From IMG/VR virus record IMGVR_UViG_3300030118_001729, positions 12,721 to 43,851 of that record: a stretch of 31,131 bases of DNA. One strand, written 5' to 3'. The position numbers were made by a program, and so were the translations under genes. This document shows, one piece after another, positions 12,532 to 18,951 of the stretch (the first letter of the stretch is position 1; every line of letters begins with the position of its first letter). The notes beneath the pieces were generated by a model that saw nothing but the letters and a program-made list of their open reading frames with translations, did no database searches and had not been told where the DNA came from. Source of the DNA: a virus.

Positions 12532-14067
12532 TTACTCCATTGGTTGTGGTGCTTGAGGCTGACTCTGCTGCATTTGCTGCATTAATGCAATCATTTTTTC
12601 ACGTTGCGCTCTATCTCGAACTAAATTATCAGGAACGCCAAACTTTTTAGCAAGATATACAGCAGTTTCTTCACTGTTAATTAATATATTTACAGCCTCT
12701 GGACCAAATGCACCATTAGCTAATTCTAAGAAACGAGATACAGATCCAATATCTTGATTAGCTTGAGCTTGTGCTAATGGAGAAATAGATCTTACTTTTA
12801 CTTCTCTTCCATTAATTGTTGGTATTTCAATACGCCCTTGTTTCTTTAAAATATAAACTACACGTTGTAATACTGGTTGTACTAATTCTACCTGCAATCT
12901 ACCAAATGCAGATCCAATACGTCTTGATAGATCTGCCATACGTTCTGCAACTTCAGTAGCAGATGCTGGAGTTTTATTAGGATCTCCAAGCATATCATTG
13001 TATAATGCACGTTTAATATTATTCTGCGCTCGATCTAAATTAAGTTGTGCAACATCAAAACGACTTGCACTAGGTATCGGTTGTAAACCTGCTGATCCCA
13101 TAGCTTTAGGAATTATAGTCCCTGGCACAAGATTTATTGTATCTGGATTTATTATACCATCGTCTTCCATTTGATATATACCAGAGATAGCCATCTGTGC
13201 ATTTTCAAGAACTAACTCTACAGTTAAGTTTGCTGTTTTAATTGCGCTCAAAGCATTAAACAATGGACCTCGACCATATACCTCACCAGCACATTTTGAC
13301 CAACGATAACAAATAAATGGGTTTGAACCGACACCTTGCATTTTTCTTTTCATCAATAGTGACTTTGTTGTCATGCAAATTGCATAATGAAGAAATGCTT
13401 CTTGGTTTGGCTTAGAATAATCCTTACAAACAATTTCTAATATAGTTGTAGTTTGATCAGATTGATTTTGCATTAATGATTGTAACTGACTATTAAACTC
13501 ACCCTTTGGATAAAGTAAGCTTATTTGATCATATCTTATAAATTTTCGTTCTCTAAATACATGATCTATTTGATCATCTGGACCAGTGTCTAGTATGACA
13601 TGAGGCAATGGAATAGCTGAAAAACGTATTGGATTTATTGAATCACCTTCTTCACATACTAAGACACCAGTACCAACTGCCAAGTCCATAAAGGACTCAT
13701 GCACTTCTTGAGCAAAGTTAGAGTTTTGTAATATCTCAAACACATACTCAGTTACTTCTTCAAGATTGTTATTAACATTATCTCTATCTTGTTTAGGAGT
13801 TTCTGACCCTGCTACAAAATCTGCCCATCGAGCAAAGTTAGGAACAAGTCCAGACTGCAATCTTGACGCAAACTCTTGAACACCTACTACAGCAGTTTCG
13901 TCAAAGATCTTATCATCACGTCTTTGACCAGATACTTCATAGTAAAAAGATTCTCTTTGTGGCAATGCATATTCATAACATTCTTCGAATACGTCAACAA
14001 AGTTTGTGCGTTTAGCTTTTGCTTTGTCGTAGCGTTGCAAGTATTGCTTTGCAATCGGATCAATCAT
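12532..14067 (-). CDS. Portal (head-tail connector) protein
   Basis: This 511-residue protein matches T7 gp8-type portals in length and motifs: QRYDKAKAKRTNFVDVFEE, YALPQRE near residue 40, then FDETAVVGVQEFASRLQSGL, and a later NPFICYRW with YGRGPLFNALSAIK. The C-terminal helix RAQREKMIALMQQMQQSQPQ is the usual Gln-rich tail. Twelve copies would form the ring through which DNA is packaged. Its start overlaps the stop of the gene at 14067-14330 (TAATG), and its end supplies the ribosome binding site of the TTG-started gene downstream. Confidence 0.92.
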   Translation of the reverse strand: MIDPIAKQYLQRYDKAKAKRTNFVDVFEECYEYALPQRESFYYEVSGQRRDDKIFDETAVVGVQEFASRLQSGLVPNFARWADFVAGSETPKQDRDNVNNNLEEVTEYVFEILQNSNFAQEVHESFMDLAVGTGVLVCEEGDSINPIRFSAIPLPHVILDTGPDDQIDHVFRERKFIRYDQISLLYPKGEFNSQLQSLMQNQSDQTTTILEIVCKDYSKPNQEAFLHYAICMTTKSLLMKRKMQGVGSNPFICYRWSKCAGEVYGRGPLFNALSAIKTANLTVELVLENAQMAISGIYQMEDDGIINPDTINLVPGTIIPKAMGSAGLQPIPSASRFDVAQLNLDRAQNNIKRALYNDMLGDPNKTPASATEVAERMADLSRRIGSAFGRLQVELVQPVLQRVVYILKKQGRIEIPTINGREVKVRSISPLAQAQANQDIGSVSRFLELANGAFGPEAVNILINSEETAVYLAKKFGVPDNLVRDRAQREKMIALMQQMQQSQPQAPQPME

Positions 14068-17574: not shown

Positions 17575-17599
17575 CCCCCACCCCCCTTGTAGCTACGAG
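17575..17599. repeat. C-tract plus palindrome GTAGCTAC after terS
   Basis: The plus strand has C5-A-C6 (17575-17586) followed by TT and GTAGCTACGAG (17589-17599). A similar arrangement, a C6 run followed by ACAGCTAC, occurs on the other side of terS at 18122. GTAGCTACGAG recurs exactly at 19057-19067. The function is unknown; a packaging or regulatory site is possible. Confidence 0.4.
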
Positions 17600-17613
17600 C
17601 GTAGAACAAAGAG

Positions 17614-17991
17614 TTATCCTAGGTCAATCGTAACACGAATATCTCCAGCTACTTGCACTTGGCTTCGATCGATAGGCTTGTAGCCAGCGCGGTCTAGCAG
17701 ATCCTTCGCTGCTTCAAGCTGGACATATTCGCTCTTGGCTCCTGTGGCTAGCCGCTTGACCGTACCAGCAGCAAGTGTAGCAGCTACTCCAAACTCTTCG
17801 TTCATACGCTGCATCAAGTAGCTTTGCACATGGGCAAGCTTTAACGTCTTGGTTGCTGTTACTCTTCCAGACTCACCAGAGGCATAACCAGCAGCTTCAG
17901 CAGCCTGCCCGATACTACAGCCTTTTGCTACGAGTGTGTCTACTAAGGCAGTCTGCTTTGCAGTCAGTTTCTTAGCTACGGCAATGTTCAT
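17614..17991 (-). CDS. terS: Terminase small subunit
   Basis: This 125-residue protein has an N-terminal helix-turn-helix, AKQTALVDTLVAKGCSIGQAA followed by EAAGYASGESGRVTATKTL, characteristic of phage terminase small subunits that recognise the packaging site. The helical middle (VQSYLMQRMNEEFG) and the C-terminal AAKDLLDRAGYKPIDRSQVQ are typical too. AAGGAATG precedes the ATG. Its base composition is clearly GC-richer than the other structural genes (33 of 60 bases G or C in 17641-17700). It is the first gene of the late strand and borders the divergent control region. Confidence 0.87.
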   Translation of the reverse strand: MNIAVAKKLTAKQTALVDTLVAKGCSIGQAAEAAGYASGESGRVTATKTLKLAHVQSYLMQRMNEEFGVAATLAAGTVKRLATGAKSEYVQLEAAKDLLDRAGYKPIDRSQVQVAGDIRVTIDLG

Positions 17992-18086
17992 TACTCATTC
18001 CTTTTTCTAAGTACGCAATTTACTTTTAGCTAACCACTGCAATGAGCGTCAAGATCATGATAAACAAAGTTTATTAGGAATGAGTA
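17992..18086. repeat. 11-bp inverted repeat flanking 73 bases
   Basis: TACTCATTCCT at 17992-18002 is matched perfectly by AGGAATGAGTA at 18076-18086. The left arm is also the ribosome binding region of terS when read on the minus strand (AGGAATGAGTA then ATG). The arms could fold the terS leader back on the transcript start region or bind a protein dimer. Confidence 0.5.
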
Positions 18087-18105: not shown

Positions 18106-18127
18106 CCCCCCTCTCCCCTCTCCCCCC
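18106..18127. repeat. Perfect homopyrimidine mirror repeat, G-quadruplex potential
   Basis: The plus strand is C6-TCT-C4-TCT-C6, a 22-base exact mirror repeat. The complementary strand carries three uninterrupted G runs of 6, 4 and 6, enough for G-quadruplex folding by splitting a G6 run. Homopurine mirror repeats of this type can also form triplex DNA. It stands out in AT-rich DNA and sits between the late and early transcription units. Confidence 0.7.
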
Positions 18128-18149
18128 ACAGCTACATACTGACTGCAAG

Positions 18150-18243
18150 TCCTGTCAATCTGTTACGTCGCGTCACTTGTGTCTACATACTACCCTGAAT
18201 ACTACATGTTGTGCTTTATGGAGCTACAGAGGTATTGACAGGA
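18150..18243. repeat. 10-bp inverted repeat with divergent TTGACA boxes
   Basis: TCCTGTCAAT (18150-18159) and ATTGACAGGA (18234-18243) are perfect inverted copies 74 bases apart. Each arm contains TTGACA pointing outward: leftward toward terS and rightward toward the early genes. Suitable -10 hexamers are not evident at 16-18 bases, so activator-dependent promoters or a regulator site are both possible. Confidence 0.45.
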
Positions 18244-18330
18244 TAGCCAGCGAGTTCATCGAGCGCACATCCATGTTTGCACAACTTAGCATTAGGCTCT
18301 CACTTATGTTTACTATCAGCTCGGATTGCA

Positions 18331-18459
18331 CCCTTCGACCACTGATCCAAATCATAGGAAGAAAAAGTTCGCAACCCGCTGATCGGGGTGTGCGAACTTC
18401 AAGCGGCAAGTGCCGTTTCTTCTCTATGATATTGGGTGGTACGAAGGGCTGATCCTTCG
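18331..18459 (+). ncRNA. Branched structured leader with alternative hairpin
   Basis: The element ends 27 bases before the first early ATG. A long interrupted stem pairs CCCTTCG (18331-18337) with CGAAGGG (18442-18448), CCAC (18339-18342) with GTGG (18436-18439), and ATCATAG (18351-18357) with CTATGAT (18424-18430), continuing into GAAGAAA/TTTCTTC. It encloses a hairpin AAGTTCGCA/TGCGAACTT (18365-18373, 18391-18399) and a smaller CGGC/GCCG hairpin (18404-18415). CGAAGG (18442-18447) can instead pair with CCTTCG (18454-18459). The two folds exclude each other, as in attenuators or riboswitches. No known RNA family is recognised. Confidence 0.6.
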
Positions 18460-18486
18460 CAGCTTAGTTAAACATAGGAGAACCAA

Positions 18487-18951
18487 ATGGCTAAAGTTGA
18501 AAACATAAATGTAACGCTAGATAAACTAGCTAACTATTCTGTAACTATACATAATGATACTACAGGACAAGTTGCTAACGACAGATTTATTACTGACGTA
18601 GCTCGAACAATAGTTAACGTTCCAATCTACGCAGCAAAGAACAAACGTTCTTACATCGAAAAGATGTATGCTGATATGATGGCTTACGTTAGTTATGATA
18701 ACAACGATAAAGTTGCTTCAGTACAGAGTGACAAATACTACCAAGCTAAAGAACGATATGAGTATCTTGCTCCTATCTTAGATGATGAAGCTATAGCTTT
18801 TGACCATATTGCTGAGACATACAAAGCTTGGTTCAAAGAATATACTGGTCAAGATTATCTCGAATCTACCAGAACTCAACCGAAGCAACTTAGCAAAGAG
18901 AAACAAGCTAAGCTTGCTGCTATCGAAGCGAGACGAGCAGCTGCTGCATAA
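18487..18951 (+). CDS. First early protein, unknown function
   Basis: This 154-residue protein begins MAKVENINVTLDKLANYSVT. It is hydrophilic, with a tyrosine-rich central part (IEKMYADMMAYVSYDNND, DKYYQAKERYEYLAP) and a basic/alanine C-terminal helix (KEKQAKLAAIEARRAAAA). I recognise no family and no catalytic motif. AGGAG lies six bases before the ATG, directly after the branched leader. It is alone in its unit: a good terminator follows at 19027. The first early position and the elaborate leader suggest a high-level or tightly regulated host-takeover or regulatory protein, which is inference. Confidence 0.8.
   Translation: MAKVENINVTLDKLANYSVTIHNDTTGQVANDRFITDVARTIVNVPIYAAKNKRSYIEKMYADMMAYVSYDNNDKVASVQSDKYYQAKERYEYLAPILDDEAIAFDHIAETYKAWFKEYTGQDYLESTRTQPKQLSKEKQAKLAAIEARRAAAA

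Follow-up and report, generated by a model that had tools for sequence, protein, structure and literature searches.

Ribosome binding sites (RBS) that stay masked until RNase III cleaves the leader are established for lambda cIII and for E. coli adhE (PMC5371410). Large hairpins before early phage genes are also found in the lambda N leader and at the T7 early RNA processing sites (PMC5371410 and general knowledge), while put of phage HK022 is an RNA-only antiterminator of approximately 70 nt which consists of two adjacent stem-loops (PMC9378689). We compared these systems with a structured element in a stretch of viral DNA of 31,131 nucleotides, referred to here as the window (positions 12,721 to 43,851 of the IMG/VR record IMGVR_UViG_3300030118_001729). 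The structural genes of the window run leftward to terS, the terminase small subunit gene (17614-17991, - strand), a rightward early operon starts at 18487, and the element lies in between.

A first-pass annotation, made from the letters of the window, had placed the element at 18331-18459, and all its coordinates match the sequence. We observed that this segment of 129 bases folds at -62.3 kcal/mol, compared with -34.0 +/- 3.8 for dinucleotide shuffles (z = -7.5, 0 of 200 shuffles as good). The minimum free energy and centroid structures were one branched fold, and its basal stem, annotated as 25-30 pairs with two terminal hairpins, was found to have approximately 29-30 pairs and to be capped by two terminal hairpins. 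The annotated fold was real, but its limits were too narrow. When the flanks were included, the stem grew outward and paired both the Shine-Dalgarno sequence (SD) and the ATG. According to the RNA fold and a strand-symmetric alignment of the arms, the whole dyad covers 200 bases (18290-18489, + strand), from CAT, the complement of the start codon, to the start codon itself, and it is kept in 18 close relatives.

All parts of the element are given here on the + strand. The dyad starts with an arm that pairs with the region of the SD and the start codon (anti-SD arm, 18290-18320); in the full window leader the partition function predicted a probability of only 0.03 that the SD is open. Segment A (CCCTTCG, 18331-18337) is followed by the 5' strand of stem P1 (ACCAC ... 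CCAAATCATAGGAAGAAA, 18338-18364; eight pairs changed on both sides in helices 4 and 5) and by hairpin P2 (18366-18398), with the stem (A)GTTCGCA.../...TGCGAAC(T). The TTCGCAA and TGCGAA strands of P2 were invariant in 22 divergent elements. A conserved CAAGC (18400-18404) joins P2 to hairpin P3 (GCGGC AAGT GCCGT, 18403-18416) in a three-way junction; in helix 8, which corresponds to P3, two pairs changed from G-C to C-G and none was broken. The 3' strand of P1 (18416-18440), supported by the covariation analysis, leads to segment B (CGAAGGG, 18442-18448), which is able to pair with A or with segment C (CCTTCG, 18454-18459), and then to the SD (AGGAGA, 18476-18481), which is kept in relatives.

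In the main fold CGAAGG (18442-18447) pairs with segment A. The alternative noted in the first-pass annotation, a hairpin CGAAGG-GCTGAT-CCTTCG, exists as well, and its pairing covaries in relatives. A partner of six bases is not improbable in one sequence alone, and the B:C match is significant because it is conserved with covariation. According to the partition function, B was paired with A in the full window leader with a probability of 1.00 and B:C was outcompeted completely; in this model the two folds are not balanced at equilibrium. The motif CTGATC is indeed present three times (18342, 18379 and 18449), but the copy in the apical loop was not conserved in relatives. Therefore the triple occurrence carries no weight, and we rejected it as a functional motif.

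Further, we searched for relatives of the element. With the first early protein as a query we found 18 close loci, and the element preceded the same gene in all of them. A gapped pattern for the central hairpin gave matches in 52 viral contigs. We extracted 47 rows with a downstream SD and ATG and dropped one (L158) as a false positive in coding sequence, which left 46 elements; 24 of these are distinct at the 93% level. These elements come from divergent phage contigs, and in all 46 the gene that follows is rightward and has an SD and ATG of its own. The terS gene was divergent from the element, at a distance of 232-715 nt, in all 42 elements in which this could be tested, while the remaining four contigs end too early. 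Among the relatives that bear the element, identity to the terS of the window goes down to 59%.

What the copies have in common is a three-way junction whose GTTCGCAA/TTGCGAAC hairpin is invariant. Their order from 5' to 3' was anti-SD arm, A, P1, P2, CAAGC, P3, P1', B, C, SD and ATG. The B:C hairpin was located mostly 5-8 nt 5' of the SD across the elements, and in the window it ends 16 nt 5' of the SD. The dyad covered the SD in all 19 elements of the main type and extended to the ATG in 12 of them. Five elements (L059, L078, L130, L157, L162), which we call type II, have the same junction and a dyad that ends 24-40 nt before the SD; because of this, we conclude that the core has one or more roles besides RBS masking. 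Two of them, L157 and L162, carry a C6/G6 hairpin directly 5' of the element, with an additional short T run in L162 which makes it terminator-like. Other large branched dyads, some with TGACGTAACGT-like hairpins, were seen in the same region, upstream of terS, in seven loci from other terS relatives (L056, L065, L070, L072, L092, L095, L099).

We conclude that the element is real and conserved, and the libraries that we searched contain no description of it. Rfam 15 gave no family at the gathering score for the window and none at E values up to 5 for 18200-18520. A blastn search of the region against known phages gave no match, the same search with the element of one relative gave only chance matches in jumbo phages, and scanning prokaryote genomes for the pattern, with one genome for each species, gave 0 copies.

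Compensatory base changes in homologues are expected of a cis-regulatory RNA, and we found them. Segments A, B and C change together between lineages. They read CCCTTCG/CGAAGGG/CCTTCG in the window, CCCTCTC/GAGAGGG/CCTCTC in L032, CATCCCCGC/GCGGGGATG/CCTCGC in L076 and TTCTTGGG/CCCAAGAA/TCTTGGG in L150. In the alignable subset A3 (14 rows, 75 pairs), 14 pairs and 42 cells were changed on both sides, compared with 2-9 pairs and 2-13 cells for slid structures, and 88.3% of the cells were paired, compared with 36-45%. For the B:C hairpin, three of six pairs were changed on both sides and 96.3% of the cells were paired. Thus the covariance check in related phages which the first-pass annotation had proposed was positive for the main fold and for the alternative hairpin.

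We also compared duplex energies within and between elements in 13 lineages with 20,000 permutations. This was done lineage by lineage, without a covariance model, because the MAFFT alignment of the core yielded only the invariant P2 helix. The energies within and between elements were -17.0 and -11.6 for A:B, -14.4 and -8.8 for C:B, -10.7 and -7.8 for anti-SD:SD, and -38.3 and -24.1 for the arms of P1 (0 of 20,000 permutations in each case). The permutations take the lineages as exchangeable, without correction for phylogeny, and phylogenetic independence does not hold for these lineages. Of seven control region pairs, six gave a null result. The seventh was A:SD (p = 0.01), a region which overlaps the anti-SD arm.

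The partition function predicted that B is paired with the 5' arm in the full leader of 17 of the 19 main-type elements. The mean probability of an open SD in these 19 elements rose from 0.25 in the full leader to 0.75 when the 5' arm and the core were removed, with a B:C probability of 0.96. Intermediate truncations of the window leader gave values from 0.18 to 0.74; only the direction of the opening is informative, because shortening an RNA generally leaves more of its sequence unpaired.

We propose that the rightward early transcript begins with the element as its 5' leader. During transcription A would capture B, and the long stem with the three-way junction would form. The outer helix would then close over the SD, and in most lineages over the ATG, so that the first early gene would presumably not be translated. 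After loss or displacement of the 5' arm, B and C are predicted to form a small hairpin just upstream of an accessible SD. The likeliest trigger may be host RNase III cutting the long double-stranded stem, or a protein that binds the conserved junction, and the B:C hairpin could in addition protect the mRNA at its 5' end after processing. We give about an even chance to the reading in which the leader keeps the start site masked and cleavage or displacement of its 5' arm ends the masking. As modelled, the conserved 200-base fold resembles a switch that turns the start of infection on or off.

The proposed mechanism would work like the RNase III-activated leaders of lambda cIII and adhE, a group to which the element may belong. 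As in these leaders, a long helix hides the RBS, which is predicted to be paired in the full-length leader here, and removal of the upstream part is predicted to expose it. The conserved three-way junction and the covarying, mutually exclusive B:C hairpin set the present element apart from these leaders, and its cleavage is only proposed. It resembles the lambda N leader and the T7 processing sites in being a large hairpin before an early phage gene, and differs from them in sequence and architecture; no homologue of N was recognised here. In an attenuator, a U run would come after the alternative hairpin. What comes after the B:C hairpin is CAGCTTAG and then the SD, with no U run, and this hairpin is absent among the terminator-like sites; therefore, we rejected an intrinsic terminator or attenuator. 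A promoter scan upstream of the element gave nothing convincing.

The reading of the element as regulatory RNA, already made in the first-pass annotation, gained from the covariation of both folds and from the outer helix that masks the SD and often the ATG; it lost from the behaviour of the two strands. In the strand-symmetric alignment of the arms we counted 1,111 Watson-Crick pairs, 42 G-U and 61 A-C on the + strand, and within clades there were 14 G-U, 23 A-C and 35 double changes. An excess of G-U over A-C on the transcribed strand, as expected of a cis-regulatory RNA, was not observed. The - strand folded better in 23 of 24 elements, and its shuffle z was lower in 20 of 24 (mean -6.8, compared with -5.4). 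This pattern is opposite to that expected from ordinary selection on a + strand RNA. It could come from a DNA dyad, from a mutational strand bias, from a need for a perfect Watson-Crick helix or from upkeep by template switching. The B:C helix alone had G-U in four lineages (L038, L076/L094, L139, L149) and A-C in none, which is the direction that a + strand RNA would give, although these numbers are small. The main rival to a regulatory leader is a DNA-level site, that is a hairpin or cruciform formed by the DNA, double- or single-stranded, which acts as a replication origin, a packaging site or a protein-binding dyad adjacent to terS, with coverage of the SD as a by-product of position. We consider such a site rather unlikely, though it keeps an appreciable share of probability. 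Strand-neutral mismatches and the better fold of the - strand agree with it, as do the fixed position next to terS, the type II elements without RBS masking, and the persistence of the element in several lineages while unrelated genes replace the downstream gene. A DNA site, however, would not need the coverage of the SD, found in all main-type elements and in the cultured phage Hodr described below, nor the covariation of anti-SD with SD. The B:C hairpin, exclusive with A:B and mostly 5-8 nt before the SD, and the G-U pairs of its helix also argue against a DNA site, and no iterons or known origin motif were recognised.

An RNA encoded by the - strand, acting as the leader of a terS operon read leftward or as antisense to the beginning of the early gene, would fit the better fold of that strand and its more frequent G-U mismatches. 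It would need a leftward promoter within or beyond the early gene, where our scan found nothing convincing, and there was no conserved leftward ORF from the mirrored ATG; we regard this explanation as very improbable. A leftward gene from the CAT end was itself rejected, since the ORFs had 2-45 codons and showed no conservation. The element could also be a mutational product, in which template switching during DNA replication perfects quasi-palindromes and gives covariation with little or no functional selection. Template switching has been proposed to create and maintain hairpins (PMC8794818), and the 35 double changes against few single intermediates, with no preference for G-U, are in line with it. 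It would not, however, keep the invariant hairpin and junction, the place before the SD and the arrangement of A, B and C in 13 lineages. We give this origin very little probability, and template switching may help the upkeep of the element rather than being its reason. In the remaining alternative the nascent three-way junction would bind RNA polymerase and cause read-through of early terminators, as put does, and the masked SD would be secondary. The element does share with putL and putR a structured RNA of several hairpins in the leader of an early phage operon. Its long conserved core has an invariant hairpin and a junction and does not depend on which gene lies downstream; this would suit such a role, for which RNA-only antiterminators provide a precedent (PMC9378689). 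The two adjacent stem-loops of put within approximately 70 nt are nevertheless unlike the 200-nt dyad found here, with its three-way junction, RBS masking and alternative fold, and the covariation of anti-SD with SD would be left unexplained. Antitermination of this kind seems improbable to us.

The first early gene (18487-18951, + strand) encodes a protein of 154 aa with no match in Pfam or PHROG. A model based on 29 homologues was all-helical (mean pLDDT 86.9) and had no PDB match at E 0.001. Other first genes appear to be present downstream of the element in L059, L063, L078, L157 and L162, therefore the element does not belong with any single protein. These unrelated genes, and the lack of any family or structural match for the product of the first gene, weakened autoregulation by this product as a candidate. 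Tentatively, and with less confidence than in masking as such, we suggest an undescribed class of phage cis-elements, widespread in marine phages. In such a class the junction with the invariant GTTCGCAA hairpin would respond to a specific signal, either cleavage or a factor from the host or the phage, and would open the first early gene by means of the conserved three-segment exchange; it would be detachable from RBS masking and reusable with unrelated first genes.

The closest cultured phage by the terminase large subunit was Pelagibacter phage EXVC031P Hodr (OQ414635, L001), which is 66% identical and was the one cultured relative that we found. On its reverse strand, at 17590-17930, we observed a very long dyad which precedes the first early gene, runs from CAT to ATG and has the whole SD in paired form. 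This leader occupies the corresponding position, with a terS homologue (45% identical) in divergent orientation, and its dyad likewise passes through the SD and ATG; in contrast, its sequence is unrelated and without the GTTCGCAA hairpin. We may be dealing with an analogue and not a homologue, and this one case gives a weak hint that these phages have arrived repeatedly at masking their first early gene. The takeover of a host depends in part on the gene that a phage expresses first, and in marine phages the control of this step is little known. A conserved leader with two predicted states offers a concrete handle on early-gene control and could be tested in a plasmid reporter, and for Hodr the analogous leader and a host in culture make an infection experiment possible. 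If the element is a DNA site instead, it marks a hitherto unknown origin or packaging element in a group of phages that recurs in marine metagenomes.

Several other features were seen in the intergenic region of the window. A near-mirror polypyrimidine tract, CCCCCCTCTCCCCTCTCCCCCC, lies at 18106-18128 and was kept in the same intergenic region of most relatives inspected; it could form H-DNA, or G-quadruplexes on the - strand. At 18150-18243 there is an inverted repeat TCCTGTCAAT/ATTGACAGGA around GTTACGTCGCGTCAC, and TGACGTAACGTCA-like motifs, operator-like in look, recur at this place in relatives. A perfect 11-bp inverted repeat, TACTCATTCCT/AGGAATGAGTA, extends from the region of the terS start codon (17992-18086), and similar long hairpins were present at the terS starts of some relatives.

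The scaffold from which the window was taken (G000, 43,851 bp) has a gap of 10 N at 12711-12720, and the window is one contig which starts right after it. The part to the left of the gap (G000:C1:1-13000, L164) contains tail genes and a second, diverged early region with DUF932-like, YqaJ-like, ERF-like and SSB-like genes that resemble genes of the window. The scaffold is probably a join of two phages.
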